Assembly: GCA_027972325.1 (NCBI GenBank)
Contig: JAPMOS010000184.1
Span: 1-60,200, forward strand
DNA: 60,200 nt
Direction: 5' to 3'
From: Paratrimastix pyriformis
Lineage: Eukaryota; Preaxostyla; Paratrimastigidae
The position numbers and the translations under genes were made by a program. Positions within the stretch are counted from its first letter, which is position 1, and each line of letters begins with the position of its first letter. Of the stretch, positions 2,601 to 44,856 are shown piece by piece. Under the pieces are notes generated by a model. It was not told where the DNA came from and searched no databases. It saw nothing but the letters and a program-made list of their open reading frames with translations.

Positions 2601-2919
2601 CTTTGGACGACGTCTGAAGGTCTGTGTAAGTATTCATTTATTACAGTTTACTCATTTTCTGAGATCGATGATCTCGGTAGGACTGGTGGTGACGCTAGGG
2701 CCGGTCAAGGTCGCCTCGTTCATTGCGGATGAAGCCATGGAGAGGGACCTCAGCTCGGGCTCAGCAGGGCACGTCGCTCAGCACTGTCCATGTACTTCAC
2801 CATGAGTGGCCACCCTCTATCACCGGAAGGCAAACTGGTGAAACAAGTCGTCACCGGCATCGAAGGACAAACCGGCGGGGGGCAAAGACCTCGGTCCGAT
2901 CTGGGACCGAGCAGATCTC

Positions 2920-3609
2920 TTGAAATTGCTCGAGGGGGAATGGGCCAACAATGCGACCCTTGACCAAAATCGGCTCATTGGTAAAGTCGCCAGCTTGTTG
3001 GAGATCGCGGGTTTGAGGGTCATGGACACGACCTCGATCTCTTTTTCCGACTCACGCTTTGAGTTCGGCCAGCCGGGGTGTGAGCACTCAGTTCGGCTGA
3101 AGGTGTGTCCGAAGGAGACACACAACACCAAGATTCGATGGGTCCAGGTGGTCGGGGCTCCCGACAACCCACTGTGCCTACACTGCGCCATGAAACAGTG
3201 GCTGACCAAGCGGCCGACGGAACCAGCGGTTGCGGGTCAGGCAGTGTCGGACACCTTCTTTGTCTTTCCACGGGATAATTCAGTGAAGTGCAGGGTGGGC
3301 AAAGCCATTTCGGCAGACTGGATCCGGAACTGCGTGCGTTCGACGATGACGGTGGCAGGCATTCCCCTGCAGTGGGGTGCCCATTCAATTCGCTCAGCCG
3401 CCGCGTCGAAAGCCGCTGCACTGGGCATTCCACTGCCACAGATTCTGACCAGGTATCGTTGGAGCTCCAGGTCCAGCACCTACCAAATGCACTATGGTCG
3501 TGCAGTGGAAGGAGTCACGGATCGCTTCGACGAGGCACTGTTGGCGGGTCGGTTCAGTGGCAAACCTCATGAAATGTCGGGGCCGCTGAACCTGACAAGG
3601 GGACCCTAG
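2920..3609 (+). CDS. tyrosine recombinase of DIRS-like gamma (fossil)
   Basis: A 229-codon frame with the layout of DIRS-type tyrosine recombinases. It has an N-terminal helical part (LLEGEWANNATLD), the first-arginine region (LLEIAGLRVMDTTSI), a basic beta region with KVCPKETHNTK, a cysteine pair in LCLHCAMKQW, then GAHSIRSAAASKAAALG (the HxxR box), LTRYRW and a tyrosine in YQMHYGR. These match the R...HxxR...H/W...Y catalytic order. The enzyme would integrate a circular DNA copy by recombination, which fits the absence of target duplications seen in this window. The region upstream to about 2700 also reads like recombinase N-terminus. A Crypton origin was considered, but the adjacent ICR and inverted repeat favour DIRS. 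Confidence 0.75.
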   Translation: MKLLEGEWANNATLDQNRLIGKVASLLEIAGLRVMDTTSISFSDSRFEFGQPGCEHSVRLKVCPKETHNTKIRWVQVVGAPDNPLCLHCAMKQWLTKRPTEPAVAGQAVSDTFFVFPRDNSVKCRVGKAISADWIRNCVRSTMTVAGIPLQWGAHSIRSAAASKAAALGIPLPQILTRYRWSSRSSTYQMHYGRAVEGVTDRFDEALLAGRFSGKPHEMSGPLNLTRGP

Positions 3610-3667
3610 GGGTTCCCCCCTTTAGCAGAGCACGAGTTGGGAGGCAGTGTGATTCCTTTGGCATGCT

Positions 3668-3791
3668 GTCTATTTTCCTGGGGGTTTGGGAAGATGAAGG
3701 TCGTCGAGATTGATTACTCGTTCGCCGAGGCTCCGAGGCTGAAGCGAGGAATCATCGAGACTCTTCTTCCCAAACCCCAGAAATACTCCCA
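3668..3791. repeat. internal complementary region of gamma
   Basis: The segment is the reverse complement of gamma's right end joined to its left end. The left portion, ending ...gaggctgaa at 3743, matches the left terminal repeat seen at about 17690-17743. From 3744 onward, gcgaggaatcatcg is the complement of 13697-13710, and gactcttcttcccaaac is the complement of the bases just before 4740. Such a junction copy is diagnostic of DIRS elements, where it helps template a circular intermediate. Confidence 0.7.
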
Positions 3792-4740: not shown

Positions 4741-4895
4741 TGGTGGGATAGCCGAGTAATCTCTTCCCCAAACAAACCCAAACCAAGAAAGAGTGAACAC
4801 TTGCACAGCAAGCACGCAAAACGGCACTGACATCCAAAAATTTATCAAAAAGAATTTGACATGTCATGTCAGTGCCGGCAGTCGACTTGTCCTTT
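4741..4895. repeat. left terminal repeat of alpha copy A, with hairpin
   Basis: The outer 24 bases (TGGTGGGATAGCCGAG...) are specific to this end. From about 4765 the sequence matches the opposite end in inverted sense up to 4895. Inside it, 4823-4876 forms a hairpin with perfect 11-bp arms (GGCACTGACAT / ATGTCAGTGCC) around an A/T-rich loop. The same hairpin is present in every alpha terminal repeat in the window. Confidence 0.8.
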
Positions 4896-6387
4896 AAGCA
4901 TAAGCCCATTCGGACGACGACACGCCAGCCACCGACGCAGAGAAAGGTGGGAAGGGAGTCAGTACCGCGCAACGCAGTAAAACCAATCCAGTTGGGAGTC
5001 AAAGCTCCCGAAGGTTTCAATGAAAACGACGAAGAGAGATACATGATCAACCATGCGAACCCCAAACATCTCCTCAAGCGGGTCGCGACCCGCCCCGGGG
5101 GGTGCACGTCTAGTCAGGGAAAGAGGAGGCTGGAGAAAACCCCGACGCACCGCTGTAACCGGTCAGCAAAAACAGGTGGGAGAGAAGAAGCCAAACAAAA
5201 GGAGGGGCGAAACCTTCAAAGGCCCCGAGGGCACCGAGTCTTCCCGTACTCGGCACCCTCCATAGGGAATCCTTCCCTCAACGGGTCGGACCCCCCGCAA
5301 ATAAAAACAACGAAGAAGATCGGACAAAACAGCGAGAGGACTCGTTGTCCGACATGCCGCGGGCCAAAGGCACGCGTCGAGAGAAACGCAGAGCACGACG
5401 GAGCCGCGACAGGCACCTTGCCTCGCAGATCCCAGGAGGGTTCTCGCCCCCGTGCTCGCGGCTCCTTCGTCACCAGTCGCCGACCGGCGCCGGTGAAGCG
5501 GTGGAGGCACCCTTGCCGTGCAGGCGTCGAATTCTGTATAAAGAACCCAAGCCCCCACCAAAAACGCAAACCCCGAAGGGAGAGAGAGCACAAAAGGTGA
5601 CGTATCGCTCGCCACTTCAGGGTGCTCAACAAATATCCCTCCCGCGAGAGGGAGGTGTGCGGTGGGGTGAGCGCGGTAGTTCACGGGCACAACGCCCACG
5701 ATGAAATCACATGAGCTGTTGTCAAAACAGAACAGACGACGGTGAATAACAAACCCCGACCCCCGCATTCTGAATGTGGAGGATGCATGGTGCCCACCAC
5801 GACCATGGTAAAGCCACACAGTTGTGCCACAACAAAACGAAAACGGGGTGAAAGATAACACCCGCAGCAGTTCCTCGAGCTGTTGCCCATTCAGAACAGA
5901 AAGGAGGAAGACAACACCCACACCGCTATGAAGGTGCATGATGGATGTCTTAAGAGTACAACGAGCAGGATGACCATAGGCTGTTGTTCAAGCAAAGTAG
6001 CTGGGGGTGAATGACCACAACTCCCCCACCATGAATGCCCAATCACATCAGACGAGGGTGAATGAGGGTGCATGAAGGGTGGTGTCTCAAGGTCAAAAGG
6101 CCCCGACGAGACCCCACACATTGTTGTCAAAGGGAACCAAACAAGGTTGAACAACAGCCACACTCGCCTCCCCACGAGGCAGCCCTCCTGACTTGTCAAT
6201 CAGATTGTCGGGTTGAACAGGCAGCAGTACAGCCAAGGGAGCACGTACGAAGATTGCGCTGCGAAGACAAAATGCCCACCATCATTCATGACCATGGGGT
6301 ACACGTTGAGTCGAAGCTTCGCGGGGGAAAGCAGCAACAAACAAACCCAGTGCCACTCGTCAGGCAGGGAGGTGGGTGGGAGACTTG
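4896..6387. other. non-coding distal segment of alpha (between end and ICR)
   Basis: About 1.5 kb with no convincing gene. It contains several degenerate repeats of 'gagctgttg' followed by acaacacccc-type runs (about 5700-6060), also present in copies B, C, D and the fragment at 59052-60200. Other alpha copies preserve the order but not any reading frame. Confidence 0.55.
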
Positions 6388-6517
6388 TCTTGGTTTGGGT
6401 TTGTTTGGGGAAGAGATTACTCGGCTATCCCACCATTCTCCTTCACGAGTTCGGAGAACGAGGGACAGCCTTCGTGGGATAGCCCCAAACAAACCCAAAC
6501 CAAGAAAGAGTGAACAC
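6388..6517. repeat. internal complementary region of alpha copy A
   Basis: Bases 6388-6435 are the reverse complement of the left end, and 6436-6517 are the reverse complement of the right end. Together they spell the two ends of the element joined head to tail, GGAGAA|TGGTGGG on the minus strand. The join agrees to the base with ends deduced independently from the insertion sites of copies A and D. This is the hallmark of DIRS elements. Confidence 0.85.
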
Positions 6518-6829
6518 CATACCAAAGGAATAGCTTTCCCCCTTCCGCACTCTACGTGACCCGGCTAACGGGATGCTCCGCCCAACACTCTTGGCCGATG
6601 AGCCGGCTCTACGGATACCCATCCTGATGTTGGGAGTGCGCGTGCCGGAGGGCCAGAACGAGCATCAAACAGCTGAGAGGTGGTACACACTCCACAGTGT
6701 CCCCCGCGTGTGTCCGGGGTCGCTCCCCAAAGGTGCCGAGTGCTGTCACTGCTTCCGACAGACAAGAAGGCATCAGTCGATGCGAGAGCAGGCATGAAAC
6801 ATCGAGCATCACACTGCCCCAGCAAAGCC

Positions 6830-7470
6830 CCACTCTGATGGTGCTGGTGTGGTGATTCTGGCCTGAATGCGCTGGTGTGGGTGTGATGCTGCTGCTGGAG
6901 TGAGAATGAACACCAGGAGGCATATGGGCACACAGGCCCGCCCCAGACGCCTCGCCACGCAGCTGTCCTGGTGTGCCAGGGCGCATTCAGGGGCATGATG
7001 AGCACACAGGCCCGCCCCGACAGAACACCACTCTGGTGGTGCTGGGTGATGGTGTTGGTGTTGCTGCTGCTGGTGTGAGAATGCACACCAGAGGGCATGT
7101 GGGCACACACAGGCCCGCCCTGAGACGCCTCAAGCAGTCAAGCAGCTGTCAGGACGCATTCAAGGGCATGATGAGCACACAGGCCCGCCCGAAAAGTCAC
7201 CACACTGGTGGTGCTGATGATACTGTTGGTGTGAGAGTGTACACCAGGGGACATGTGGGGCACACTCCGGCCCGCCCCAGACGCATCAAACAGATGTCCT
7301 GGTGTGCCAGGACCCATTCAAGGCATGATGAGCACACAGGCCCGCCCTGAGCAACGCCACACTGATGGTGCGTGTGCTGGTGGTGGTGCTGTGATGATGC
7401 TGCCGGTGTGAGAGTGCATCCAAGGGGCATGTTGGGCGCACTCAGGCCCGCCCCTGATGAACATACCGGG
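6830..7470. repeat. degenerate tandem array with hairpins in alpha
   Basis: A core (A/C)GGCCCGCCC recurs at about 6931, 7005, 7108, 7178, 7265, 7335 and 7441. Spacing alternates between about 70-74 and 87-106 bases, implying a two-part unit of roughly 160-180 bp. Units also carry short inverted repeats such as GTCCTGGTGTGCCAGG and CACCACTCTGGTGGTG. The array is present in B (about 23040-23760), C (about 30000-30700) and D (about 32850-33480). Confidence 0.6.
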
Positions 7471-7922
7471 GCATGAACAGGTGCAAGCCCCTCAAGTGCA
7501 TAGCACCAATTTTCCCGGTGTTGGTGTACCCACGGGCACCGCATCCGAACATACCACGGATCGCCCTCCTGAAAAAACCAGCGGTGCATGCATGCCATCG
7601 TCACGGTGTTGGTGAGTCAACGTACACACCGAGGCAGAGGGGCATCCGGAAATCCAACGGAGCGCCCTCATGAGAAAACCCGCGGTGCGGCACGTAAACG
7701 AGCAGATACGCGCTGAAATCACACAAGGGTCCCAGTGTTGGGGTGATGGTCATGGGCAAGCGCAGGCCTACCCCAAAGAAAAACACCGAACACTGGTGTT
7801 GGTGTGCCAGATGTGTCACAGAGAGGGCCCGCCTGGAAAAACACGACTTCAGGTGCGGGTGTGACAGCGCACACGGGATCGGAAGAGAACCCATTGAGGA
7901 ACGACGTGCAACTATGAGGCTT

Positions 7923-8002
7923 GCTGGCGGTCAGTGAATTCTCTCAATCTCTAGACCTAGCAGTGCCGAAATCCCAAAGTTGTTTCTGACCTGACCGCCA
8001 GC
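7923..8002. repeat. conserved stem-loop in alpha
   Basis: The arms gctggcggtcag (7923-7934) and ctgaccgccagc (7991-8002) are perfectly complementary over 12 bp around a 56-base loop. The older copy B keeps both arms (24124-24135, 24193-24204) although its loop has changed. C and D each carry one difference in one arm. Confidence 0.5.
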
Positions 8003-9893
8003 TTGTTGGGACCTCTCGATCCCCGAGCGTGGGACCCGTGGGTGCACAAGTATGCGCGCGTCCCTGACGTCTCACAGTTTGTTGTTGTTTCTGACCCTGT
8101 ACGGTCTGTGTGAGGGTGTGGGCGCAAACAAACACAGGCCCGCCCAACCAAATGCTCTCAGTATAGTTCGCGTCCGTGTGTGAAGTGTGATCCCACTCCA
8201 GGCAGGACAGCACCGCAGAGCACCGAGTAGGGGAGCAGAAATACTATGGAATAATGCCACCCGGCTGTGGGCAAGGCGGACAAGTGCACTGTTCTCAGCC
8301 TTGCCTGTGAATGGACAGAGTGACCCCAAGCAGGAGTGATCGTGATGGGTCCAAGACAGGGATGCTCGCCCTCCCGGGACGGAGCCGCCCCATCATGGCC
8401 CTCGGAGGTGGGGATGGGATGAGCCGGAATGATGGGCAGGGACTGGAAGGTGTACGTGGGTGCTGAGGGCACGCACTCGGAGGAGGGAGAGTGCGCAGAG
8501 ATCACGAGTGGTGTTTCACCCAAGAGGGCGGAGAGAGGATGCGACGACAGACTTTCCTCTCTGCTCCCGTCAAGCTTGCCCGACGTCTCGTGCCCAGGCT
8601 GAGAGTTGAACGGGGTATTTGTAGAGCGCCCTCGGCCGCTGGCGCCTAGTCCCACCACCCTTCGCCGGGTGGAAGCTGCGGCTGCACCACCTTCATTTGG
8701 GGCCCCACTTGTATAGCGCCGGACCCCTGGGGCGCTCCTCCCGTGCCCCCACTGGGGGTCCCAAAGGGAACGGCCGCCAGTGTGTCAGTCTCATCGATCG
8801 GGTGTAGGGGACGAGGACGTGCGTTCGTTGACCCGACGCTCACATTTTGCAAAGGAGCAGGCAGTCCCCAATCCGCGCGAAGAACCCCGCAACGAGACCC
8901 CGATGTGCATGGCCGAAGTGGGGCACTCGCCCCTTTCAGCATGGATGCCCTGGCCACAGAAGAGCCAACGTGTGAGTTCAGGACGCTCACGATCTTGGGC
9001 TTGGGCAACTGAGGAGTTGTTGAGCAGCCCGTGGGTCATGGGAGCCTTTCAGGTCCGCGGTGAGCATGACTCTTGTCCGGGCGATGTTGTCCCCGGGAGG
9101 AACGGTACCAGGGACACTCCCGTCGGGTGTTGTGGGTCCAATGGGCCAGGAGAAGAGGACAACTGCGATGACCTCACGCTCGTCTCTACGCACCCAGAGT
9201 CAGGGAAGGGCTCTTTCACGAAGCCAGACTTTGTAACGAGGCACTCCGTCACACGTTCCATTCTCCTTCACGTGTGTCGGGTACCTGACCGCTCACATTT
9301 TTTGCAAAGGGGGAGCCAGTCCCCAGGCCAGATGCAGACCCCGTCACGAGGGGTGGACAACCCTGGTGTGCATGGTCGAAGTAGAGAACTCGACAGTGGG
9401 GCCTATGTGTGTCCTGGAAGCTCGCGATCCTGGACTTGAGGAAAGACAGACCCGTTCCCTAGAACACGTCTCCTCCCTCTTGGGGGACATCTGTTAGATC
9501 AGGCCCTTCCCCCCCCCAGGGGAACGTCATGCTCACCCGGTCCCGCGCGGGGTGGTGGCCCAGGCATGTCGAGCACACGATGCTTCCCTCCTAAACGTAC
9601 GCCGTGTGAAAGAGCAACGGGGGGTGTTTCCCTCGGTTCCGAAAGAGTATAAGACCTCTGAAACGTGGTGTGGCGACCGCCATGGTTCCATGTGGGACAT
9701 GGAGTCCGGACCGAGTCATCGTGTCTCCGATCCGAAACCGGGGAGTTGGCTGCTCCCCTGGTGCGCGCCCAAAATAGATGAAGCTCCTCTCTTGCAACCG
9801 CCAGTGTGTGTTGAAGAGGGAGAAGCTCGCAGTGTGCGTTGTTGTAAAATCCTGCGAGTTGTGCCGCAGGAACGTGCGCGCCTGTGTGCCCGC

Positions 9894-9991
9894 AGATCAT
9901 CAGGGCCATGAGTCGGCTCCCTGGTCGAACGGTGCGTGGTAGCAGATCATCAGGGCCATGAGTCGGCTCCCTGGTCGAACGGTGCGTGGTG
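9894..9991. repeat. 48-bp tandem duplication private to alpha copy A
   Basis: The segment starting agatcatcagggccatgag occurs twice in immediate succession here and once in copies C and D, so it arose after these copies separated. It has no coding meaning. Confidence 0.75.
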
Positions 9992-11001
9992 GACATGGGA
10001 CCTCCTGCCTTGCCCCGCGACAACATGGGCTCCGCGACAACACGGCCATGCGAAGATGGTCGAAGCCAAACGTTCTGGCGAAGTGAGAGGTTCGAAGTGG
10101 GAGGTTTGCCCTCTGGCACAAAGAATGGCCACGGAATGAAGAGGGCGACGTGAAGATGCCAAGTGCAGACCCACAAGACAACTGGTCGATTGTTCAGAAG
10201 TGACTCGGAGCGTTCGCTATATTCTCCCTCCCGAGCGACCAGGTCAATCAACCCCAGATGGAAGACCGGCTTGAGAAGAACTTGAGCGCGAAATGAGTTG
10301 CGCGCGTGACCAGTAATCGTGCGAATTTCAGAGTCACACGTGGACTAAACGCTGATAGCGGAGGTCATCCACTGACGTGGGCCCAGAGCGAGTGCACGGG
10401 CGTCCCTCGCCGGATAACCGTTGACCCAGCATTCCATTCATCTCATTGTTCGATCCTGAAAAACCCATGAAGGATTTTGGCCTGAAATATTTGCCAACCA
10501 GGTGTTTCGACAGACTGAGTGGCTCCGCAGAGTCTGAGACATGGCCAGAAGAGACCACCAGCATTTCCGAGATCCTCTAAGCCGCCTGTCAAATGACACT
10601 GGTGATGAAATTCCTTCAAAGGAATTGAACAGACTGTATGAAAAAGTTTGTTGTTGTGCCAAACGAGCACCGTGGGGTCGAACGAACAGAGTATCGAACT
10701 GATTCGTCAGCCCTTTCAACCGCAAAGTCAAATCGACCAGTGAATAAATTCCTTCAAAGGAATTAAACAGACTGTACAACAGAGGTTGCTTGCGTGTCGA
10801 ACGAGCCCCGTGGGGCCGAATGAGCAGAGTATCAAACTGATTCGCTCAAAACGTGACGTGGTGGTCTGGTGGGTCTGTCAGTGAACGTATGTATCAAGGT
10901 TGCTTTGAAACTGAACCGACACCTCAAGCAGGCATCCTTCGTCCCGAAGCAATGAGTATTCCAGCGCATGTCACACGGTGACCAGGCACCAACGAACAGT
11001 G

Positions 11002-12837
11002 GGGACTGATTTCGAGATCCTGGTACTCGGGTCGGAAAAAAATAATGTGTGCGTAAAAGAACGGACCTTGCACGGTGTGTACGGGGTGGTGGGCCACTAA
11101 GGTGGGAGGGCCTCGGGCCCGGGTGGGTGGGGTGATGAAGATTGCGCATTCGAAAAAAAGTGTTCCGATCCAAATGTCAAGTGGACTAACAAGAAGCTGT
11201 GAGATGAACTCGTGGGTTGGTGTGGTGAGAGGGACTCCGGTGCCAAGTGGTGCCAATGAAATGAGGATAAACTAATGTCTGAAGTGACCGAAGTGAGTTG
11301 AGACCTGGGAATGCCTTGAATGTGAGTGTGAATAAAGGAGATGCGAATGAAATGACGATCTAGAGCAAGTGTGAGGTGGAAAGTGATAAGTGATTCCCAT
11401 CCCTAAAAAAGCGATAAAGCGGCGATCTATTCGAAAAGGGAGCAATGAAGTACATAAAAAAACACAACAGAAACAAAAGATTAGCCAGAAAAAGAAAGCG
11501 CCGCGACCAACAACGGCTGGAAAAATGACGCGTTTAAAAAAGGCAGAGATACTGAAGCGCAGGTTGAAGCCGCCCCGGTCATTTTTGAATCTTGTTGGGG
11601 TCCCACGACCCCTGTGCAGCGGGCTTTTCGGCCATGTTGCCGTTTTGAAAAATTCTTTGTTTGATTGCGCTTCGTTTTCAGTTCCCAAAATAGGGTACCT
11701 AGCCAAACTTTTTCCTCATTCTTTTATTTGGATGCCCGTGCAGCGGGCTTTTTCAAGGTTTGGATAGAACAGGGTGTTGGGCCGTTAGGTGCCCAAAGAT
11801 TGACGGACTCAAAACCGGGTACCTAGGGACGATTTAAGGAGCTGGGCCGCGATCGGCCATCGACGGTTCTGGTTTGTGGAAATCAGTCCCAGAGAGAACA
11901 TGCTGTGTATTTGCGAGGGCGCAGGCGACAAGTTCCCAGAAAGAAAGGTTACTCGCGCCTTCGCGCCATGCGTTACACTCCGGGGGGAGCCGGGCCAAAC
12001 GACCCGATGAAAGTTGGCTCCTCCCGGCCGGTGGCCCGCTCGGAGGCGGTGCCGCCCGGTGATGGGTGGTGGGAGGGTGTCGCCGGTGTGTGTTCATCTC
12101 CGGCGACGGCGGCGAGCTCGTGGCTGGGGTGGGCCAGGGTCCCCAGAATCGAGTGTCCCGTGAGTCGTCCCCAATGGGACGACGGGAACGAGCTGCCTGA
12201 TGGGGACGGCTTCCAGAGGGATGACGGGCCCGTAGGGGAACGGCGGCGGGGGCACAAGGGGCGCAGGTGGTTGCGGACGGTGACGTTCACGTGGAGCAGA
12301 ACGCTTCAGGGGCGGTGGTGGAGGAGTGGACTCACGATGACCGGAATGTTGCACCACCATTGGAGTCGGAGTCGGAGGAGCGATGGCATGATCTGATGCC
12401 GGTGGGTCAGGCACCTTTTTGGATGTAAGAGGCTGCACAGATGCTTTCTTGGGTTTCGGAGGCGGAAACCGGGATTCCGATTTTGAATTCCGCATGGACC
12501 GGTAATGGGGGTCGGATTTCAATTCCGGGTATCGATCGAGCACACGAATGGTGAAGGGAGTAAGCGTCGGGAAAAGGTATGAGGAAAGGTGCTCGCTGAA
12601 ATCCTTTGGCGCATGTTGGGCAATGAAATCGACCAGAGAGCAGATGTCGACACTGAGCTGTCTGACATCTCTCTCGTAGTGGTGGCGGACACGACGAGCG
12701 AGACCGCTTTCGTGCTTCTTTATGGCATTGGATAGCCACTGAAGAGAGCCAGAGGTTTCTGGAATAGAGCTCATTCTTTGAAGAAAGAGCGCACTCAAAT
12801 TTGATTTGAATGCGAATAGAACCCCAGGCGAAAGGTG
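11002..12837 (-). other. extra 1.84-kb segment in alpha copy A
   Basis: Copies C and D run directly from '...aacgaacagtg' into 'ccattccaaagg'. Copy A instead holds about 1.84 kb between these bases, with GTG at both edges and no clear terminal inverted repeat. It contains an A-rich part (about 11340-11560), two copies of gtgcagcgggcttttt (about 11615 and 11740) and the open frame 12094-12774. It could be host DNA captured by copy A, or an ancestral internal part missing from the shorter copies. Its place near the minus-strand start of the element would suit a Gag-like gene. Confidence 0.6.
12094..12774 (-). CDS. 226-aa open frame in the extra segment of alpha A, unknown
   Basis: It starts at MSSIPETSGSLQWLSNA. 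Residues 1-110 look like a folded helical protein (KKHESGLARRVRHHYERD, DICSLVDFIAQHAPKDF, LFPTLTPFTIRVLDRYPEL). The rest is proline-rich, with a basic end (RARRRRRR). The first half resembles no family I can name. Two explanations fit: a Gag-like protein of an ancestral alpha, since it lies just inside the minus-strand leader, or a captured host exon. It is intact as an open frame. The helical part makes chance unlikely; function is unknown. Confidence 0.45.
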   Translation of the reverse strand: MSSIPETSGSLQWLSNAIKKHESGLARRVRHHYERDVRQLSVDICSLVDFIAQHAPKDFSEHLSSYLFPTLTPFTIRVLDRYPELKSDPHYRSMRNSKSESRFPPPKPKKASVQPLTSKKVPDPPASDHAIAPPTPTPMVVQHSGHRESTPPPPPLKRSAPRERHRPQPPAPLVPPPPFPYGPVIPLEAVPIRQLVPVVPLGTTHGTLDSGDPGPPQPRARRRRRR

Positions 12838-13517
12838 CCATTCCAAAGGAAACTGGGGTGATACCCCAACCGAAAGTCTTTGCGGAGGATGGCGGCGCAA
12901 ATTGGCCCAAGCCCAACGAGCTCAGCCAGTTCAAAGTTGCACGCAGGACGGTCACGAAAACGGAATAAAGACTATCTTTCTTTGCTTTTCCGTTTTGGTT
13001 TTTTCTGATCTTTGTTTGGAAGTTTTTGTTTCCTTCCGTTTTTGGTTTGTAAAAAACAAAATATAAAGCGAGTGCTATTGTGACGCCACAGACCCGGAAA
13101 GGAGGACCCAGATTCTGAGATTCCAGGTGATTCTTCTCCAGTCCGTCCGGGAAAGTTGAAAGGCCGGCAAAAGGGCCTGTAACCCTCACAAAGTAAAACG
13201 CGGCGACCCACGAGGAGGTGGGAAGAGAGAGACGCGATGAGTTGATCAATGAGATCAGTCGTTCAAGGCTACAAGGCAGGGGTTGAAAAGTGACAAGGCG
13301 GCCTTGAAAAATCAATTGAAATAAGGCCAGCACTTTCAGAGCGCCAAAGGAGCGGCACGTTGGCCGACATCTCTTAGATCATTCCAAAAGTCAACCCAAC
13401 TCGACGAAACAAAATGCAAGGTCTTCAGAGCTCGAGTAACTCTTCGAAAATTCTTGAAAAAGCATAGAAACCCGAAAACCCGGGAATAAAATATGCGTTG
13501 CGATTTGCTTATTGCGC

Positions 13518-13695
13518 AAAAGGACAAGTCGACTGCCGGCACTGACATGACATGTCAAATTCTTTTTGATAAATTTTTGGATGTCAGTGCCGTTTTGCGT
13601 GCTTGCTGTGCAAGTGTTCACTCTTTCTTGGTTTGGGTTTGTTTGGGGCTATCCCACGAAGGCTGTCCCTCGTTCTCCGAACTCGTGAAGGAGAA
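13518..13695. repeat. right terminal repeat of alpha copy A
   Basis: It is the inverted match of 4765-4895, including the 11-bp-arm hairpin, followed by an end-specific extension gctatcccacgaaggctg...gaaggagaa. Bases 13696-13710 beyond it are the displaced tip of gamma. Confidence 0.8.
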
Positions 13696-16710: not shown

Positions 16711-17537
16711 TTAGTGGCTCTCCTCCAGCTCGCTGGCCTCGATGATGCAGGCCTCGGGCATCTTCGTCCCGTCCTCCAGCCGGCACAGTGGGCGCCACTC
16801 GCTCCGGCGGAGGTCGCTAAGGGTCCTCGTCGTTTCCTTGAGGGCATCCAGAGCCAGGATGCCAAGGTTTCGAGCGGCCTCGAATGAGAGCTCAGACGGC
16901 GATGATGCCGTCGAAAGGTTGGCGAGTGCCACCAGAGTCTGTAGAGGGCGCATAGCGGAGAACACCCCTGCTGTAGCCCGAGCCAGCGCACTGTCCCGTT
17001 GAGTCGCCGCCTTCCGCAGGTCTGGATCAATGAGGCGTAAGGCACTCACTGGTGGTGCAACTGCAGGATCGGCCTTGCCCTGGTCTCGAAAGTTGGGAAA
17101 CGCGCGGCCGACGTGAACAACGCGAGCGAATTCCTCTTGTGTCGGTGCTTCGTGTTGAAGACGATTGAATTGCAGCCCCAGCATCTGCAAAGTCTGTGCT
17201 TCTCTTTCTGGTAAGGTTGGAGGAGTCACCACCTTTTTTGTAGGGGCCTCCTTCGCAAAGATGTCCGGTAACTTGGCCGTTGGTTTGAAATAGATCTGTT
17301 GGAGAGTATCGAAGTAGTATTGTCCGACTTCCTCTTGATCTTGATCGCTTTCATCTTCTTTTTCTTCAGGATTTGTTGCACCCAACAGAGAGCTGTCACC
17401 CTCCGCTCCAGTGTCGCCTTCAGGGTCAGGAGGTTGGGTTTGGGGGCCAGGGTTGGCCGGATGTTCAGGGTCAAGGGCGGGCCCCTGTTGCTGCTGGGTC
17501 TGTTGTTGTGGTGTTGCTTGTTGATCTGCTTGATCCA
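16711..17537 (-). CDS. Gag-like protein of gamma (fossil, cut at its end)
   Basis: From MDQADQQATPQQQ the protein has a glutamine-, proline- and acid-rich N-terminus (about residues 1-75). A mainly helical region follows (TLQMLGLQFNRLQHEAP, FARVVHVGRAFPNF, then ALRLIDPDLRKAATQRD and ATAGVFSAMRPLQTLVAL). Beta's Gag-like gene shows the same layout: a Q-rich start and a helical core with an aspartate- and arginine-containing segment. A codon upstream in the same frame (17607) lies within the terminal repeat, so the start at 17537 is preferred. Its last codons overlap sequence that also borders the other zeta array, so the true C-terminus is probably missing. Confidence 0.5.
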
Positions 17538-17743
17538 TTCTTTGCCCAATAGGGATGCGTCTTGAAGCGTGCGAAACGCAAAGGGCGGGTTCCACTATTC
17601 GTGTCATCTGACATGGAATTTCTTTCTATTTGTGGTCAGTGCCGCTTTTTGCGTTGCCTGACGTGATGTCTATTTTCCTGGGGGTTTGGGAAGATGAAGG
17701 TCGTCGAGATTGATTACTCGTTCGCCGAGGCTCCGAGGCTGAA
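16711..17743 (-). mobile_element. DIRS-like gamma, left end with Gag-like gene (fossil)
   Basis: Reading on the minus strand, the left terminal repeat begins at 17743 (ttcagcctcggagcc) and continues to about 17585, then a Gag-like frame runs to 16711. The terminal repeat matches both the gamma ICR (3668-3743) and the right repeat at 4616-4740, so this is the same family as the recombinase fragment at 2700. It abuts delta sequence at 17744 and is cut on its far side by a zeta array. Only the left part remains; the visible gene shows no clear break apart from the cut end. Confidence 0.7.
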
Positions 17744-20882: not shown

Positions 20883-23800
20883 TGGTGGGATAGCCGAGTA
20901 ATCTCTTCCCCAAACAAACCCAAACCAAGAAAGAGTGAACACTTGCACAGCAAGCACGCAAAACGGCACTGACATCCAAAAATTTTATCAAAAGAATTGA
21001 CATGTCATGTCAGTGCCGGCAGTCGACTCGTCCTTTAAGCATAAGCCCATTCGGACGACGACACGCCAGCCACCGACGCAGAGTACGGTGGGAAGGGAGT
21101 CAGTACCGCGCAACGCAGTAAAAACAATCCAGCTGGGAGTCACAGCTCCCGAAGGTTTCAAAGAAAACGACGAAGAGAGATTCATGATCAACCATGCGAA
21201 CCCCAAACATCTCCTCAAGCGGGTCGCGACCCGCCCCGGGGTGTGCACGTCTAGTCAGGGAAAGAGGAGGCTGGAGAAAACCCCGACGCACCGCTGTAAC
21301 CGGTCAGCAAAAAACAGGTGGGAGAGAAGAAGCCACAAATAAAGGGAGGGGCGAAACCTGCAAAGGCCCCGAAGGTACCGAGTCTTCCCGTACCCGGCAC
21401 CCTCCTTAGGGAGTCCTTCCCTCAACGGGTCGGACTCCCCGCATAAAACAAGAAGATCGGACAAAACAGCGAGAGGACTCGTTGTCCGGCATGAGGCACG
21501 CGTCGAGAAAAACGCAGAGCACGACGGAGCCGCGACAGGCACCTTGCCTCGCAGATCCCAGGAGGGTTCTCCGACCCCGTGCTCGCGGCCTCTTCGTCAC
21601 CAGTCGCCGACCGACGCCGATGAAGAGGTGGAGGCACCCTTGCCGTGTGGGCGTCAAGTTCTGTAAAAGAACAAGCCCCCCACCAAAAAGCCAAATCCCG
21701 AAGGGAGAGAGAGCACAAAAGGTGACGTATCGATCGCCACTTCAGAGTGCTCAACCAATATCCCTCCCGCGAGAGGGAGGTGTGTGGTGGAGTGATCGGG
21801 GGTGGTTCACGGGGACAACGACCACGATGAAATCACATGAGCTGTCGTCAAATCAAAACAGACGGCAGTGAAAGAAAAACCCCACCCCCCCATATGAACG
21901 AGGAGGAGGTATGGTGTCCACCACGACCACGATAAAGCCACATGGCTGTTGCCAACAAAACGGTGGTGAAAGACAACACCCCGCACCACGATGAAGTCCC
22001 TCGAGCTGTTGTCCATTCATAGCAGACCAGGGGGAAGACTCCTACAAGAGCACAACGAGCAGGATGAACCCATAACCCATAAGTTGCAAGCAAAGTACCT
22101 GGGGTGAATAACCACACCTCACTCACCCCACCATGATTACCTAATCACATCTGACGAGGGTGAATGAGGGTGAATGAAGGGGGGACTCCGCGTAAGCCGG
22201 GAAGTATCACACACACGCACCCACACACGAATGAAGGGTGGTGACTTAAGGGCAAACGGCCCCGATAAGGCCCCCCACACTGTTGTCAAAGGGAATCTAA
22301 CAAGCTTGAAACCCAGCCACACATTGCCTCTCCCACGAGGCAGGCCAACTGACTTGTCAATCAGATCGTGTGGATGAAAAGGCAACAGTAACGCCAAGGC
22401 AGCACGTAGTAAGACAGCGCCGTGAAGACAAAATGCCCACCATCATTCACTGTCTGTGGGTACACGTTGACGTCCAGCTGTCGAGAGTTCGCGGGGAAAG
22501 CAGAAACAAACAAACCCAGTGCCCCTCATCAGGCAGGGAGGTGGGTGGGAGACTTGTCTTGGTTTGGGTTTGTTTGGGGAAGAGATTACTCGGCTATCCC
22601 ACCATTCTCCTTCACGAGTTCGGAGAACGAGGGACAGCCTTCGTGGGATAGCCCCAAACAAACCCAAACCAAGAAAGAGTGAACACCATACCAAAGGAAT
22701 AGCTTTCCCCACCTCTTAACTCGACACCAAGCTCCTCTCGGCCGATGAGCCGACTCTACCCATGCCCATCCGGGTGTTGGGAGTGCGCGTGCCGGAGGGG
22801 CAGCACACCAGAAGGAGCATTAAACAGGTGAGACATACCCACTCCACAGTGTCCCCCGCATGTGCCGGGGTCGCCCCGAAAGGTGCCGAGTGCTGCCGTT
22901 GCTTCCGGCAGAGAGGCACAGCCCGCCTGGAAAAGGCATCAGTCGATGCGAATGCAGACATGAACAGCCTCACACCGCCCCGAGCAAAACCCCACGATGA
23001 TGGTGCTGGTGTGGTGGTTCCGATCTGAAGGTGCTGGTGTGATGCCGCTGCTGGTGTGAGAGTGAACGCCAGGAGGCATGTGGGGCACACAGGCCCGCCC
23101 CAGAAGCATCACGCAGCTGTCCTGGTATGCCAGGACGCATTCAAGGGCATGATGAGCACACAGGCCCGCCCTGAAAAACACCACTCCAGTGGTGCTGTGT
23201 GATGGTGTCGGCGTGATGCTGCTGCTGGTGTGAGAATGTACACCAGGGGGCATGTGGGCACACTCAGGCCCGCCCTGAAAAATCACTGCACTGGTGGTAC
23301 TGATGATGCTGTTGGTGTGTGAGAGTGCACACCAGGGCTTATGGGGGGCACACTCAGGTCCGCCCCCAGACGCCTCAAACAGATGTCCTGGTGCCAGGAC
23401 CCATCCAAGGGCATGATGAGCACACAGGCCCGCCCTGAAAAATCACCGCACTGGTGGTACTGATGATGCTGTTGGTGTGTGAGAGTGTACCCCAGGTCCG
23501 CCCCAGACGCATCAAACGGATGTCCTGGTGTACCAGGACCCGATGCGCACACAGGTTTCGCCCCGAGAAAACGTCAAACTGATGGAGCGTGTGGTGGTGA
23601 TGGTGCTGTGATAATGCTACTGGCGTGAGAGTGCATCCAGGGGGCATGCTGGGCGCACTCAGGCCCGCCCCAGACGATGGTCTGCCAGGACAGATCCAAG
23701 GACATGATGAGCACACAAGCCCGCCCCAGAAAAGCACCAACTCTTGGTGCTGCCGTGCAGCAGTGCACCATAGGCCAGCAAGGCCGCCCTCAAGGACACC

Positions 23801-25525
23801 CCACCGGGTAACAGTGTGGGTGCCCGTGAACACGCACTGGCTGATGAGTGCAAAGACACACTCGCGGCACCGCCCTTCATTGTGGCCGCGGAGGCATGAG
23901 TGGGTAAACATACCCCTGTGGATATATACACCCATTGGCATAGGGCATTCGGATATACAACGGATCGCCCTCATGAGAAAGCCAGCGGTGCAAGTCTGCC
24001 AAGGTCCCAGTCTTGGGGTGACGGTCATAGGCAAGCACAGATCCACCCTCAGGTGTGGGTGTGACAGCGCACATGATATCAGACGAGCACCCACTGAGGA
24101 AAGAAGTGAAAACTATTAAGCTTGCTGGCGGTCAGTGAACTATCTCCATTCTCTACACCTAGCAGTGCCGAAGTCCCAAAGTTGTTTCTGACCTGACCGC
24201 CAGCTTTGCTGGTGCCTCGATCCCAGTGTGTGAGACCCGTGGGTGCATAAGTATGAGCGCCTGTTCCTGACGCCGAAGAGCATGTCTTCTCCCGGGGTAT
24301 AGTCTCGCAGTCTGTTGTTGTTTCTGACCCAGTGAGAGTGGTCTGTGTGAGCATCCGTGCCCGGTGTGGGCGCAGACAAGCACATGTTCGCCAAACCAAA
24401 TGCTCTTGGTAATGAGTGTCCGTGTGTGAGGTGTAAACTCTCTACTACGGGCAGCTCCCCAGTGGAGCAGAAATTCGATGGAATAATGCCACCTCGCGGT
24501 CAAGTGCACAGTAGCCCTCAGTCTCGTTTATGAATGGACAGAGTGACCCCAAGCAGGAGTGATCGTGATGGGTCCAAGACAGGGGTGCTCGCCCTCCCGG
24601 GACGGAGCCCCCCCATCATGTCCCTTGGAGCAGGGGATGGGATGAGACGGAGTGATGGGCCGGGACAGGAAGGTGCACATGGGTGCTGCGACTGGTGTGT
24701 CACACAATGAGGAAGGAGAGAGAACATTCCGACGGACTTTCCCTCTGCTGCTGCCAAGGCAGTCGGCCCCCCTGTCGCGCCTGAAAGTTGACGGGGTATT
24801 TCTCGGCCGGTACGGCTGTTTGTGGGGTGCCCGGGGAGACTGGATGGCCAATGTGAGCTCGACCCAAGGTGGTCACCATGTGCAGGGTCGCGAGGTTGTG
24901 ACGCTCCCTCCGTGCGCGATGGTCAAAGGAAGTGAACCCCTTCCGCATGAACGGTACAATGCGGGAAAGTGCATCCCCCGGGACTTGACAACCTGGTAGT
25001 AATTGCCCCAACTGTTAGCTGATGTGAAGCTGAAGAATGCTGCCGGACCGTTGGGGGACTCGGGGGGGGGGGGGGGTGAGGAGCCCCTTGTTCAAGAAAC
25101 CCATGAGGGCATGCTTCCCCGTCCGGCGGGCGAGTGAGTCTGTCCCCGATGGGGCGCCTGCCGGAAAACACCCGAGTGAGATCATTTCGTGCGAGGATGG
25201 TGGCGCAGACGAGTCCCGTGCCTCCGGGTCTCCCACGACGGGGGCTGTGTAGTAGTACTCCGGCTGTTGGGCGATGACCGGTGATACCAATTTTGAGCTC
25301 GCCCCAACTCGATGTGACGAGGGCGGGCGTCCCATGACGCTCATGCTTGCAATCGGCGCGCATGACGCACGAGCACATTGTCAATGAGAGAGTTCAAGCC
25401 GTGTGCCATGTCCAAAAAGGAAGATAACCGCATTCAGCGTAACCTGGTGGGTGCCTGGGGGAAGCTCCCGCCCCGCGACTTGCCACCTGGTAATGAGCCT
25501 GAACTGTCAACGGATGTGGAGCTGA
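20883..25525 (-). mobile_element. DIRS-like alpha, copy B, first part (fossil, older subfamily)
   Basis: It begins TGGTGGGATAGCC at 20883, with the terminal repeat, non-coding distal segment, ICR, tandem array and stem-loop in the same order as copy A. It differs from A at many sites throughout, and from about 24800 to 25525 it shares little with A. It is cut at 25526 by copy C. A likely continuation reappears at 39529-40641. No gene was seen. Divergence marks it as older than A, C and D. Confidence 0.7.
22557..22686. repeat. internal complementary region of alpha copy B
   Basis: It has the same structure as in copy A: the complement of the left end up to 22604, then the complement of the right end from 22605. 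It is conserved although the rest of the copy has diverged. Confidence 0.8.
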
Positions 25526-28500
25526 TTCTCCTTCACGAGTTCGGAGAACGAGGGACAGCCTTCGTGGGATAGCCCCAAACAAACCCAAACCAAGAAAGAG
25601 TGAACACTTGCACAGCAAGCACGCAAAACGGCACTGACATCCAAAAATTTATCAAAAAGAATTTGACATGTCATGTCAGTGCCGGCAGTCGACTTGTCCT
25701 TTTGCGCAATAAGCAAATCGCAACGCATATTTTATTCCCGGGTTTTCGGGTTTCTATGCTTTTTCAAGAATTTTCGAATAGTTACTCGAAAGCTCTGAAG
25801 ACCTTGCATTTTGTTTCGTCGAGTTGGGTTGACTTTTGGAATGATCTAAGAGATGTCGGCCAACGTGCCGCTCCTTTGGCGCTCTGAAAGTGCTGGCCTT
25901 ATTTCAATTGATTTTTCAAGGCCGCCTTGTCACTTTTCAACCCTGCTGCCTTGTAGCCTTGAACGACTGATCTCATTGATCAACTCATCGCGTCTCTCTC
26001 TTCCCACCTCCTCGTGGGTCGCCGCGTTTTACTTTGTGAGGGTTACAGGCCCTTTTGCCGGCCTTTCAACTTTCCCGGACGGACTGGAGAAGAATCACCT
26101 GGAATCTCAGAATCTGGGTCCTCCTTTCCGGGTCTGTGGCGTCACAATAGCACTCGCTTTATATTTTGTTTTTTACAAACCAAAAACGGAAGGAAACAAA
26201 AACTTCCAAACAAAGATCAGAAAAAACCAAAACGGAAAAGCAAAGAAAGATAGTCTTTATTCCGTTTTCGTGACCGTCCTGCGTGCAACTTTGAACTGGC
26301 TGAGCTCGTTGGGCTTGGGCCAATTTGCGCCGCCATCCTCCGCAAAGACTTTCGGTTGGGGTATCACCCCAGTTTTCATCAGAAAAAACCAAAACGGAAA
26401 AGCAAAGAAAGATAGTCTTTATTCCGTTTTCGTGACCGTCCTGCGTGCAACTTTGAACTGGCTGAGCTCGTTGGGCTTGGGCCAATTTGCGCCATCCTCC
26501 GCAAAGACTTTCGGTTGGGGTATCACCCCAGTTTCCTTTGGAATGGCACTGTTCGTTGGTGCCTGGTCACCGTGACATGCGCTGGAATACTCATTGCTTC
26601 GGGACGAAGGATGCCTGCTTGAGGTGTCGGTTCAGTTTCAAAGCAACCTTGATACATACGTTCACTGACAGACCCACCAGACCACCACGTCACGTTTTGA
26701 GCGAATCAGTTTGATACTCTGCTCATTCGGCCCCACGGGGCTCGTTCGACACGCCAGCAACCTCTGTTGTACAGTCTGTTTAATTCCTTTGAAGGAATTT
26801 ATTCACTGGTCGATTTGACTTTGCGGTTGAAAGGGCTGACGAATCAGTTCGATACTCTGTTCGTTCGACCCCACGGTGCTCGTTTGGCACAACAACAAAC
26901 TTTTCATACAGTCTGTTCAATTCCTTTGAAGGAATTTCATCACCAGTGTCATTTGACAGGCGGCTTAGAGGATCTCGGAAATGCTGGTGGTCTCTCTTCT
27001 GGCCATGTCTCAGACTCTGCGGAGCCACTCAGTCTGTCGAAACACCTGGTTGGCAAATATTTCAGGCCAAAATCCTTCATGGGTTTTTCAGGATCGAACA
27101 ATGAGATGAATGGAATGCTGGGTCAACGGTTATCCGGCGAGGGACGCCCGTGCACTCGCTCTGGGCCCACGTCAGTGGATGACCTCCGCTATCAGCGTTT
27201 AGTCCACGTGTGACTCTGAAATTCGCACGATTACTGGTCACGCGCGCAACTCATTTCGCGCTCAAGTTCTTCTCAAGCCGGTCTTCCATCTGGGGTTGAT
27301 TGACCTGGTCGCTCGGGAGGGAGAATATAGCGAACGCTCCGAGTCACTTCTGAACAATCGACCAGTTGTCTTGTGGGTCTGCACTTGGCATCTTCACGTC
27401 GCCCTCTTCATTCCGTGGCCATTCTTTGTGCCAGAGGGCAAACCTCCCACTTCGAACCTCTCACTTCGCCAGAACGCTTGGCTTCGACCATCTTCGCGTG
27501 GCCGTGTTGTCGCGGAGCCCATGTTGTCGCGGGGCAAGGCAGGAGGTCCCATGTCCACCACGCACCGTTCGACCAGGGAGCCGACTCATGGCCCTGATGA
27601 TCTGCGGGCACACAGGCGCGCACGTTCCTGCGGCACAACTCGCAGGATTTTACAACAACGCACACTGCGAGCTTCTCCCTCTTCAACACACACTGGCGGT
27701 TGCAAGAGAGGAGCTTCATCTATTTTGGGCGCGCACCAGGGGAGCAGCCAACTCCCCGGTTTCGGATCGGAGACACGATGACTCGGTCCGGACTCCATGT
27801 CCCACATGGAACCATGGCGGTCGCCACACCACGTTTCAGAGGTCTTATACTCTTTCGGAACCGAGGGAAACACCCCCCGTTGCTCTTTCACACGAAATAC
27901 GTTTAGGAGGGAAGCATCGTGTGCTCGACATGCCTGGGCCACCACCCCGCGCGGGACCGGGTGAGCATGACGTTCCCCTGGGGGGGGGGGGAAGGGCCTG
28001 ATCTAACAGATGTCCCCCAAGAGGAGGAGACGTGTTCTAGGGAACGGGTCTGTCTTTCCTCAAGTCCAGGATCGCGAGCTTCCAGGACACACACATAGGC
28101 CCCACTGTCGAGTTCTCTACTTCGACCATGCACACCAGGGTTGTCCACCCCCTCGTGACGGGGGTCTGCATCTGGCCTGGGGACTGGCTCCCCCCTTTTG
28201 CAAAAATGTGAGCGGTCAGGTACCCGACACACGTGAAGGAGAATGGAACGTGTGACGGAGTGCCTCGTTACAAAGTCTGGCTTCGTGAAAGAGCCCTTCC
28301 CTGACTCTGGGTGCGTAGAGACGAGCGTGAGGTCATCGCAGTTGTCCTCTTCTCCTGGCCCATTGGACCCACAACACCCGACGGGAGTGTCCCTGGTACC
28401 GTTCCTCCCGGGGGACAACATCGCCCGGACAAGAGTCATGCTCACCGCGGACCCCACCAGAAAGGCTCCCATGACCCACGGGCTGCTCAACAACTCCTCA

Positions 28501-30769
28501 GTTGCCCAAGCCCAAGATCGTGAGCGTCCTGAACTCACACGTTGGCTCTTCTGTGGCCAGGGCATCCATGCTGAAAGGGGCGAGTGCCCCACTTCGGCCA
28601 TGCACATCGGGGTCTCGTTGCGGGGTTCTTCGCGCGGATTGGGGACTGCCTGCTCCTTTGCAAAATGTGAGCGTCGGGTCAACGAACGCACGTCCTCGTC
28701 CCCTACACCCGATCGATGAGACTGACACACTGGCGGCCGTTCCCTTTGGGACCCCCAGTGGGGGCACGGGAGGAGCGCCCCAGGGGTCCGGCGCTATACA
28801 AGTGGGGCCCCAAATGAAGGTGGTGCAGCCGCAGCTTCCACCCGGCGAAGGGTGGTGGGACTAGGCGCCAGCGGCCGAGGGCGCTCTACAAATACCCGTT
28901 CAACTCTCAGCCTGGGCACGAGACGTCGGGCAAGCTTGACGGGAGCAGAGAGGAAAGTCTGTCGTCGCATCCTCTCTCCGCCCTCTTGGGTGAAACACCA
29001 CTCGTGATCTCTGCGCACTCTCCCTCCTCCGAGTGCGTGCCCTCAGCACCCACGTACACCTTCCAGTCCCTGCCCATCACTCCGGCTCATCCCATCCCCA
29101 CCTCCGAGGGCCATGATGGGGCGGCTCCGTCCCGGGAGGGCGAGCATCCCTGTCTTGGACCCATCACGATCACTCCTGCTTGGGGTCACTCTGTCCATTC
29201 ACAGGCAAGGCTGAGAACAGTGCACTTGTCCGCCTTGCCCACAGCCGGGTGGCATTATTCCATAGTATTTCTGCTCCCCTACTCGGTGCTCTGCGGTGCT
29301 GTCCTGCCTGGAGTGGGATCACACTTCACACACGGACGCGAACTATACTGAGAGCATTTGGTTGGGCGGGCCTGTGTTCGTCTGCGCCCACACCCTCACA
29401 CAGACCGTACAGGGTCAGAAACAACAACAAACTGTGAGACGTCAGGGACGCGCGCATACTTGTGCACCCACGGGTCCCACGCTCGGGGATCGAGAGGTCC
29501 CAACAAGCTGGCGGCCAGGTCAGAAACAACTTTGGGATCTCGGCACTGCTAGGTCTAGAGATTGGAGAGAATTCACTGACCGCCAGCAAGCCTCATAGTT
29601 GCACGTCGTTCCTCAATGGGTTCTCTTCCGATCCCGTGTGCGCTGTCACACCCGCACCTGAAGTCGTGTTTTTTTTTCCAGGCGGGCCCTCTCTGTGACA
29701 CATCTGGCGCACCAACACCAGTGTTCGGTGTTTTTTCTTTGGGGTAGGCCTGCGCTTGCCCATGACCATCACCCCAACACTGGGACCCTTGTGTGATTTC
29801 AGCGCGTATCTGCTCGTTTACGTGCCCGCACCGCGGGTTTTCTCATGAGGGCGCTCCGTTGGATTTCCGGATGCCCCTCTGCCTCGGTGTGTACGTTGAC
29901 TCACCAACACCGTGACGATGGCATGCATGCACCGCTGGTTTTTTCAGGAGGGCGATCCGTGGTATGTTCGGATGCGGTGCCCGTGGGTACACCAACACCG
30001 GGAAAAATTGGTGCTATGCACTTGAGGGCTTGCACCTGTTCATGCCCCGGTATGTTCATCAGGGGGCGGGCCTGAGTGCGCCCAACATGCCCCCTTGGAT
30101 GCACTCTCACACCGGCAGCATCATCACAGCACCACCACCAGCACACGCACCATCAGTGTGGCGTTGCTCAGGGCGGGCCTGTGTGCTCATCATGCCTTGA
30201 ATGGGTCCTGGCACACCAGGACATCTGTTTGATGCGTCTGGGGCGGGCCGGAGTGTGCCCCACATGTCCCCCGGTGTACACTCTCACACCAACAGTATCA
30301 TCAGCACCACCAGTGTGGTGACTTTTCGGGCGGGCCTGTGTGCTCATCATGCCCTTGAATGCGTCCTGACAGCTGCTTGACTGCTTGAGGCGTCTCAGGG
30401 CGGGCCTGTGTGTGCCCACATGCCCTCTGGTGTGCATTCTCACACCAGCAGCAGCAACACCAACACCATCACCCAGCACCACCAGAGTGGTGTTCTGTCG
30501 GGGCGGGCCTGTGTGCTCATCATGCCCCTGAATGCGCCCTGGCACACCAGGACAGCTGCGTGGCGAGGCGTCTGGGGGCGGGCCTGTGTGCCCATATGCC
30601 TCCTGGTGTTCATTCTCACTCCAGCAGCAGCATCACACCCACACCAGCGCATTCAGGCCAGAATCACCACACCAGCACCATCAGAGTGGGGCTTTGCTGG
30701 GGGCAGTGTGATGCTCGATGTTTCATGCCTGCTCTCGCATCGACTGATGCCTTCTTGTCTGTCGGAAGC
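25526..30769 (+). mobile_element. DIRS-like alpha, copy C, first part (fossil)
   Basis: It is inverted relative to copies A, B and D: it opens with the complement of the right end (TTCTCCTTCACGAG) and proceeds inward. At 30769 it is interrupted by copy D. The sequence that should follow resumes at 37664 without loss or duplication. It is nearly identical to A and D, so it is young. It carries a tandem duplication at 26216-26540. No gene was recognised. Confidence 0.8.
26216..26540. repeat. tandem duplication of about 160 bp in alpha copy C
   Basis: The block from atcagaaaaaaccaaaacgg through gcaaagactttcggttgg occurs twice in succession here and once in copies A and D. The two halves differ by a 3-base step (gccgccatcc against gccatcc). 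Confidence 0.75.
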
Positions 30770-44565: not shown

Positions 44566-44856
44566 TTCTCCTTCACGAGTTCGGAGAACGAGGGACAGCC
44601 TTCGTGGGATAGCCCCAAACAAACCCAAACCAAGAAAGAGTGAACACTTGCACAGCAAGCACGCAAAACGGCACTGACATCCAAAAATTTTATCAAAAGA
44701 ATTGACATGTCATGTCAGTGCCGGCAGTCGACTCGTCCTTTTGCGCACTAAGCAAATCGCAACGCAATCCTTTATCCCGGAGTTCTCCATTTTCTCGGTC
44801 CTCTCGGACTCATTTTTCATAGCTTATTGGGAAGAGATTACTCGGCTATCCCACCA
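44566..44856 (+). mobile_element. 291-bp alpha miniature (fossil, non-autonomous)
   Basis: It has the complement of the right end at 44566 (TTCTCCTTCACGAG), the terminal hairpin, about 100 bases of second-subfamily subterminal sequence, and then only the outermost left-end bases (aagagattactcggctatcccacca) to 44856. Both outer ends agree with those of full copies. There is no ICR and no interior. It is an internal-deletion form resembling a MITE but with DIRS ends. It lies between two LINE fragments. Confidence 0.75.

Follow-up and report, generated by a model that had tools for sequence, protein, structure and literature searches.

Alpha, a large, multi-copy and apparently gene-less DIRS-like family in Paratrimastix pyriformis

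How does a repeat that displays the structural signals of a DIRS retrotransposon, and apparently none of its genes, come to be present in many copies? The question is raised by alpha, an element of Paratrimastix pyriformis whose copy 1 was recognised in contig JAPMOS010000184.1 (here C95), analysed over its whole length of 60,200 bp (the window). DIRS elements are defined, in the accessible text of PMC8969392, by inverted terminal repeats (ITRs), an internal complementary region (ICR) made of two parts, each complementary to one of the outer ends, and the lack of a target duplication; the ICR is also described in the accessible text of PMC5633606. We regard alpha as most probably a family of large non-autonomous DIRS-type retrotransposons, which probably move with enzymes borrowed from gene-bearing DIRS of the same genome.

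Structure, distribution and integration of alpha

Copy 1 has the ITR-plus-ICR plan of a DIRS-type element (Table 1). It runs from TGGTGGG at position 4741 to GGAGAA at 13695 and lies in the 3' extension of a coding DIRS element, gamma. Its two ITRs are identical over 130 bp, the outer extensions beyond them are unequal (25 nt on the left against 47 nt on the right), and the ICR spells the joined ends, 82 plus 48 nt, just where a preliminary description of the window had placed it. Matches to the 13-mer GGAGAATGGTGGG in the window number five when exact and six when one mismatch is allowed, where 0.18 would be expected. The sense strand of alpha would be the minus strand of the window, since DIRS ICRs sit toward the 3' end, as they do in gamma and in a second coding family of this genome, delta. 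The alpha ICR typically lies 1.60-1.86 kb from the left end, and calling that end 3' rests on this positional rule together with the unequal extensions.

Is this arrangement general? We searched 56.06 Mb in 495 contigs (the accessible text of PMC10703272 gives the published assembly as 56.63 Mb in 633 scaffolds, with 60.94% G+C, from Nanopore reads with Illumina polishing). At up to two mismatches in 25 nt, alpha ICR junctions occur 88 times on 51 contigs, 85 of them exact, and end matches at up to two mismatches number 178 left and 201 right, ICRs counted among them; reversed-pattern controls for right end, left end and ICR all gave 0 matches. The family is thus multi-copy, as had been claimed, and with 88 loci its ICR is not a chance repeat. 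The first listings of end matches gave positions for about 100 of the 201 right and about 100 of the 178 left ends. Exact left termini, chosen without regard to the ICR by a preceding base other than A, have an ICR 1.60-1.86 kb inside them in 37 of 62 cases; the remaining 25 include miniatures and broken copies. The alpha ICR was not found in a collection of viral contigs.

Left and right ends could be paired, with an ICR and a right flank other than T, in 13 cases, nine of which span 6.8-8.0 kb and eight of those 6.8-7.2 kb; one of the other four is mispaired in the window, and three, of 12.4-12.7 kb, are probably nested or mispaired. The basic element is therefore about 7 kb long. The size of 7-9 kb first given to alpha needs this correction, copy 1, at 8955 bp, being enlarged by an insert of 1.83 kb and a second of about 160 bp near 8920-9077, both missing from the copy at 30770-37663. 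Contig C174 holds copy 1 with matching flanks, so that C95 and C174 are probably haplotigs, and haplotigs inflate copy counts.

Within single elements the 130-bp ITRs differ by 0-1 mismatches in nine of ten cases and by five in the C205 copy, although the alignments from C174, C184 and C106 also contain many gap columns. Mean mismatches are 0.9 within and 1.8 between elements, a comparison too small and gap-ridden to carry weight.

Integration is precise. Eleven flank pairs were available, of which one, at a contig end, had no usable flank and another, on C174, is probably an allele of copy 1. Among the nine independent testable insertions that are left, six have an exact empty site with neither duplication nor deletion, as tyrosine-recombinase integration predicts: copy 1 (in the gamma 3' extension), copy 3 (in an alpha1 copy), C106 (in a delta reverse transcriptase (RT) region), C148, C205 (at 94-95%) and C114b (at 83-85%). 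For C184, C238 and a 291-bp miniature, no empty site was found in the sequence searched. The first base beyond 60 exact right ends (next base not T; haplotigs included) is C in 36, G in 14 and A in 10, which hints at a target preference.

Alpha comprises at least three subfamilies. Ungapped identity is 98.4-99.3% among three alpha1 copies and 98.9-99.5% among five alpha2 copies; alpha3 is represented by one full copy. The family had been described as young, which these substitution levels bear out. Weighing on the other side, gapped blastn identity within subfamilies is about 90-99%, with 90-93% in places, and the right end of the C174 copy is degraded.

Across subfamilies the ends and the ICR are near-identical while the interiors differ. 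Between alpha1 and alpha2, the left 3.9 kb or so, which takes in the left end, the ICR and the middle, matches at 80-98% for the most part, interrupted by gaps and a few poorly matching stretches, whereas the adjoining sense-5' half of about 2.8 kb shows about 42% identity, the level of unrelated sequences; the right end is then identical again. In blastn searches, the two alpha1/alpha2 halves fall in separate copies. We offer tentatively, as a possibility short of an even chance, that constraint is confined to the outer ends, the ITRs and the ICR and that the sense-5' halves of about 2.8 kb were swapped between lineages, perhaps by template switching during reverse transcription, with another DIRS family driving the element in trans. 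Constraint on ends and ICR would leave the interior free to diverge and to be swapped.

Could alpha instead spread as DNA, either through a recombinase that excises and reinserts circles or by ectopic recombination or duplication, with the ICR a mere relic? Exact, duplication-free integration is general to tyrosine-recombinase elements and fits this as well, C95 and C174 share their flanks (as probable haplotigs), and contigs C166 and C191, discussed below, suggest local duplication. Apart from C95 and C174, however, the copies read have different flanks. A relic ICR should also drift, yet clusters compared at 30 ICR loci differ in it by 0-0.1%, while their flanks differ by 9-30%. This contrast is biased because the loci were found by their ICR, and the main argument is the 37 of 62 left termini that still have an ICR although chosen without it. 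Spread as DNA thus appears quite improbable.

Coding content and coding loci near alpha ICRs

Does alpha carry genes? In nine full copies, 13 protein queries (delta, gamma and neighbouring open reading frames (ORFs)) gave no match inside at E 1e-4; one match starts on the outermost base of the C106 copy, from which it extends outward. RT, RNase H and recombinase were detectable in none of these nine fully read copies. In three copies, one per subfamily, 86 ORFs of at least 100 aa gave three Pfam matches, the best with E 0.039, and an ORF partly within a copy-1 insert reached E 0.025, below its cut-off. Coding DIRS are readily found in the same assembly: among the first 51 matches listed for the gamma recombinase, taken as a control, 49 have at least 90% identity and 45 lack a stop. 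The absence of recognisable DIRS genes, first proposed from the window, therefore extends to all nine full copies. A recombinase at 2992-3495, considered as an alpha gene, belongs to gamma, in whose 3' extension copy 1 is inserted. We class alpha as non-autonomous DIRS-like, rather than as autonomous DIRS, because none of the nine copies has coding sequence and the three scanned have no Pfam support.

A protein of alpha's own might escape profile searches. The alpha2 ORF L043:4814-5746 matches nine hypothetical P. pyriformis proteins (PAPYR_11196, 8840, 12116, 11476 and others), seven of which apparently lie on alpha-bearing contigs (C89, C478, C184, C114, C185, C109 and C205). The longest ORFs of five copies are equalled by 74, 17, 66, 51 and 5 of 100 shuffles, so that lengths are unremarkable in four, and the 344-aa ORF of C238, equalled by only 5, speaks for a protein. 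However, the four PAPYR models that we compared share a start and then diverge from each other to varying degrees, most of the indels that separate subfamilies have lengths not divisible by three, and alpha1 shows no relation to alpha2 in the sense-5' half. The matching models are probably spurious, and an alpha-encoded protein is highly unlikely. A captured gene in the alpha2 copy of C184 was also considered and rejected, since all matches to its longest ORF (311 aa) are predicted P. pyriformis proteins.

Is there, then, a minority of copies with alpha ends that do carry RT, RNase H and recombinase, from which the gene-less copies derive? Around each ICR, 9.5 kb on the sense-upstream side and 2 kb downstream were considered, with matches to the Pfam recombinase, the gamma and delta recombinases and the gamma RT. 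The gamma/delta recombinase and gamma RT searches were included because PF00589 misses many recombinases here; with the delta recombinase and the gamma RT, the tally of ICRs that have a coding locus in range went up from 16 to 28. The protein match lists hold 149 of 276, 150 of 246 and 70 of 701 candidates, and coding loci are those among the matches listed. On this basis 60 of the 88 ICRs have no recombinase or gamma-RT locus in range, 28 have at least one coding locus and 22 have a recombinase; coding interiors in most copies, the outcome that would have spoken for autonomy, were not seen.

In eight of the 28 cases the coding locus lies outside alpha by a mapped end (C71:51612, C89:56517, C108:20095, C114:37981, C185:18740, C205, C410:58508 and C478:98087), and in three by reading (C95:59043, C196 and C298); the ICRs of C95:59043 and C196 adjoin a delta copy of opposite orientation or with its own ends. 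Among the best 150 of 904 RVT_1 candidates, three fall in ICR range, all beyond a mapped alpha right end. An autonomous alpha was also suspected at C298, C162 and C345, where ICR and recombinase are a constant 3.9 kb apart. At C298 this suspicious spacing comes from an alpha2 copy that ends at 6907 beside a broken gamma.

Several points weigh in favour of autonomy. At 17 of the 88 ICRs, including one on C119 that is rearranged on reading, the nearby recombinase or gamma-RT locus is not placed relative to alpha ends; the 17 are C7:114096, C18:101746, C54:26067, C114:34500, C119:19558, C156, C161, C162, C166 (two), C185:7430, C191 (two), C291, C345, C478:84813 and C478:108552. Further coding loci may exist, since the scored lists cover part of the candidates, and frame disruption in alpha is by itself weak evidence in an assembly based on long reads. 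The best candidates are four places with one layout, C166:4935, C166:13133, C191:23772 and C191:31805, where a same-strand delta recombinase ends 1.5-1.6 kb sense-upstream of the ICR, in one place with an RT behind it. They lie in a repeated unit of about 8.1 kb (C166:3367-15326 and C191:22200-33991), with ICR spacings of 8198 and 8033, which suggests a single tandem pair on two contigs. At three of the four the nearest left end, 1.57-1.59 kb beyond the ICR, is in an unexpected, inverted orientation. Delta at C196 has its own ends and ICR, different from those of alpha; judging from its 3' end, about 1.24 kb past the recombinase, the alpha ICR at the four places would lie about 0.3 kb outside delta. 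Nor do the nine copies without coding remnants, with a length of about 7 kb in most mapped copies and long shared interiors, resemble simple deletion derivatives. An autonomous alpha is unlikely, though it is the most credible of the alternatives to borrowed enzymes. For the class of non-autonomous elements first proposed, the gene-less copies stand as described; non-autonomy itself we infer, with 17 loci unplaced and a helper designated by terminal similarity.

Candidate helper, proposed mechanism and other features of the window

Which coding family could drive alpha? Gamma has its coding set (gag-like ORF, RT, RNase H and recombinase) together at C298; its RT at C298 and C114 is 95-97% identical to the query, the C119 ORF. 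It carries ITRs and an ICR spelling GATGATTCCTCGC|TTCAGCC. About 55 bp of the alpha and gamma ITRs align at equal depth with a score of 34 (alpha5/gamma5); 3000 random genomic windows reach 28 at most and 500 shuffles 29, all shuffles being exceeded at both ends. The two junctions share a layout, arm | TTC - 17 nt - GAACGAG arm. The abundant gamma family or a close relative would be the likeliest helper because of this common ITR stretch and junction layout. On the other side, gamma and alpha ends otherwise differ, the alpha interior has a single 29-nt blastn match to gamma (E 1.7e-4), and the inverted arms at the junctions, picked by eye, are reached in 0 of 2000 shuffles for gamma and at a weak p of 0.018 for alpha. 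Delta seems the less likely helper, its terminal scores with alpha being no higher than those of shuffles, although the C166/C191 association may yet speak for it. The gamma5-delta5 comparison itself gives z 3.4. Three RT ORFs were scanned for further domains, and one has a Dam-type methyltransferase domain (E 1.4e-4), which was not found in the delta RT ORF among them. At C196:24229-24440, a gamma 3' end lies no more than about 10 nt past an alpha ICR.

We propose that an alpha transcript would be copied by the RT and RNase H of a coding DIRS, and that the ICR would serve as the template on which both ends are joined and completed. The product would be a circle whose junction reads CCCACCA|TTCTCC in sense orientation. 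The tyrosine recombinase of the helper may then recognise the inverted arms around the junction and recombine the circle into the genome. The scheme is drawn from genomic DNA, and both the transcript and the circle are its predictions.

The window holds further alpha copies (Table 1). Positions 20883-41969 form a three-level nest, with copy 3 inside copy 2 and copy 2 inside copy 4, of another subfamily; the left end of copy 2 was not found on reading the window. Short elements with both alpha ends measure 291 bp (44566-44856 and C88:9863-10153), 77 bp (C98:29418-29494, C98:51062-51138 and C188:33810-33886) and about 1.67 kb (C478:36940-38605). No ICR is listed in any of these six, of which the 291-bp element of the window was read fully. 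At 17629-20445 (minus strand) lies an RT ORF of a further DIRS-like family with, by eye, a recombinase-like start interrupted at the gamma 5' end (17743). Tandem repeats of about 136-142 bp are common to 16419-16702 and 48578-49054, and a related repeat is the insertion site of alpha copy C114b.

Table 1. Features of the window, with positions in its own numbering
Feature	Position	Strand	Remarks
Gamma tyrosine recombinase ORF	2842..3609	+	Phage_integrase E 9.3e-5, score below curated cut-off
Gamma ICR	3664..3778	+	spells gamma's own joined ends
Alpha copy 1, subfamily alpha1	4741..13695	- (probable sense)	8955 bp including inserts
Left (sense 3') outer extension, copy 1	4741..4765	-	25 nt, outside ITR
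Left ITR, copy 1	4766..4895	-	130 bp, identical to 13519-13648
ICR, copy 1	6388..6517	-	130 nt; reverse complement of 82 nt of right end and 48 nt of left end, joined
Insert in copy 1	11002..12828 (about)	.	1.83 kb; shared with C174, missing from copy 30770-37663
Right ITR, copy 1	13519..13648	-	130 bp, identical to 4766-4895
Right (sense 5') outer extension, copy 1	13649..13695	-	47 nt, contains TTCTCC..GGAGAA inverted arms
Gamma 5' end (17743) and gag-like ORF	16714..17743	-	
Alpha copy 4, alpha2-like, left part	20883..25525	-	ICR 22557-22686; continues from about 39633 to end at 41969
Alpha copy 2 (alpha1), sense-5' part	25526..30769	+	continues 37664-39531, ICR about 37901-38011; within copy 4
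Alpha copy 3 (alpha1)	30770..37663	-	6894 bp, ICR 32398-32526; nested in copy 2, exact empty site
Miniature	44566..44856	+	291 bp; both outer ends, one ITR, no ICR
Coding DIRS, delta	53990..58400	-	gag-like, RT, RNase H, recombinase; broken frames
Broken alpha right end (58519-58732), then partial alpha1 copy of opposite orientation	58519..60200	.	ICR 58971-59099; stops at contig end

Alpha among known mobile elements

Alpha is a real, sizeable and apparently gene-less DIRS family, with strong structural support and a helper that its termini would designate. Non-autonomous partners show which cis signals a retroelement needs at the least, and alpha can be read as a natural experiment of this kind: the features that survive in gene-less copies (ends, ITR and ICR) should be those needed for replication and integration, which would include, where the circle is joined, a site for the recombinase with its inverted arms. 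The family is thereby relevant to the ICR, whose role has been little tested, and it documents DIRS diversity in Preaxostyla. In the openly available literature searched we found neither the phrase 'non-autonomous DIRS' nor any of six variants of it, although subscription papers and Repbase, outside this scope, may report such elements. Nor did any paper there mention Paratrimastix together with DIRS, or 'Paratrimastix pyriformis' together with transposable elements. The stems 'transpos' and 'DIRS' do not occur in the accessible main text of the P. pyriformis genome paper (PMC10703272).

Alpha shares its ITRs, two-part ICR and lack of target duplication with DIRS-1-like elements as these appear in the accessible text of PMC8969392 and PMC5633606. 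The gene set given for DIRS-1-like elements (gag, RT/RNase H/methyltransferase and recombinase) is missing from alpha. The alpha ICR also stands further from the putative sense 3' end, at 1.6-1.9 kb, than the ICRs of gamma and delta, at about 1 kb. In Trypanosoma cruzi, the tyrosine-recombinase retroelement VIPER has a non-autonomous derivative, SIRE (accessible text of PMC6681497). SIRE, however, is about 0.4 kb long, matches the VIPER ends directly and is of the split-direct-repeat type, whereas alpha is about 7 kb long, with ITRs, an ICR and an interior of its own.

Cryptons, which are DNA transposons with a tyrosine recombinase, are not known to have an RT, ITR or ICR; alpha has both ITR and ICR, and we rejected its assignment to this group. 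TOC1 of Chlamydomonas, which we take to be a non-coding retroelement of several kb, presumably mobilised by a tyrosine recombinase, would resemble alpha in these respects, but it has split repeats in place of alpha's ITR plus ICR. The LARD and TRIM elements, non-autonomous long terminal repeat (LTR) retrotransposons, are, like alpha, gene-less, keep their replication signals and borrow their enzymes. They do so with LTR ends and a DDE integrase, where alpha would rely on ITRs, an ICR and a tyrosine recombinase. Alpha suggests that DIRS, like LTR elements, can sustain a large class of parasitic elements.

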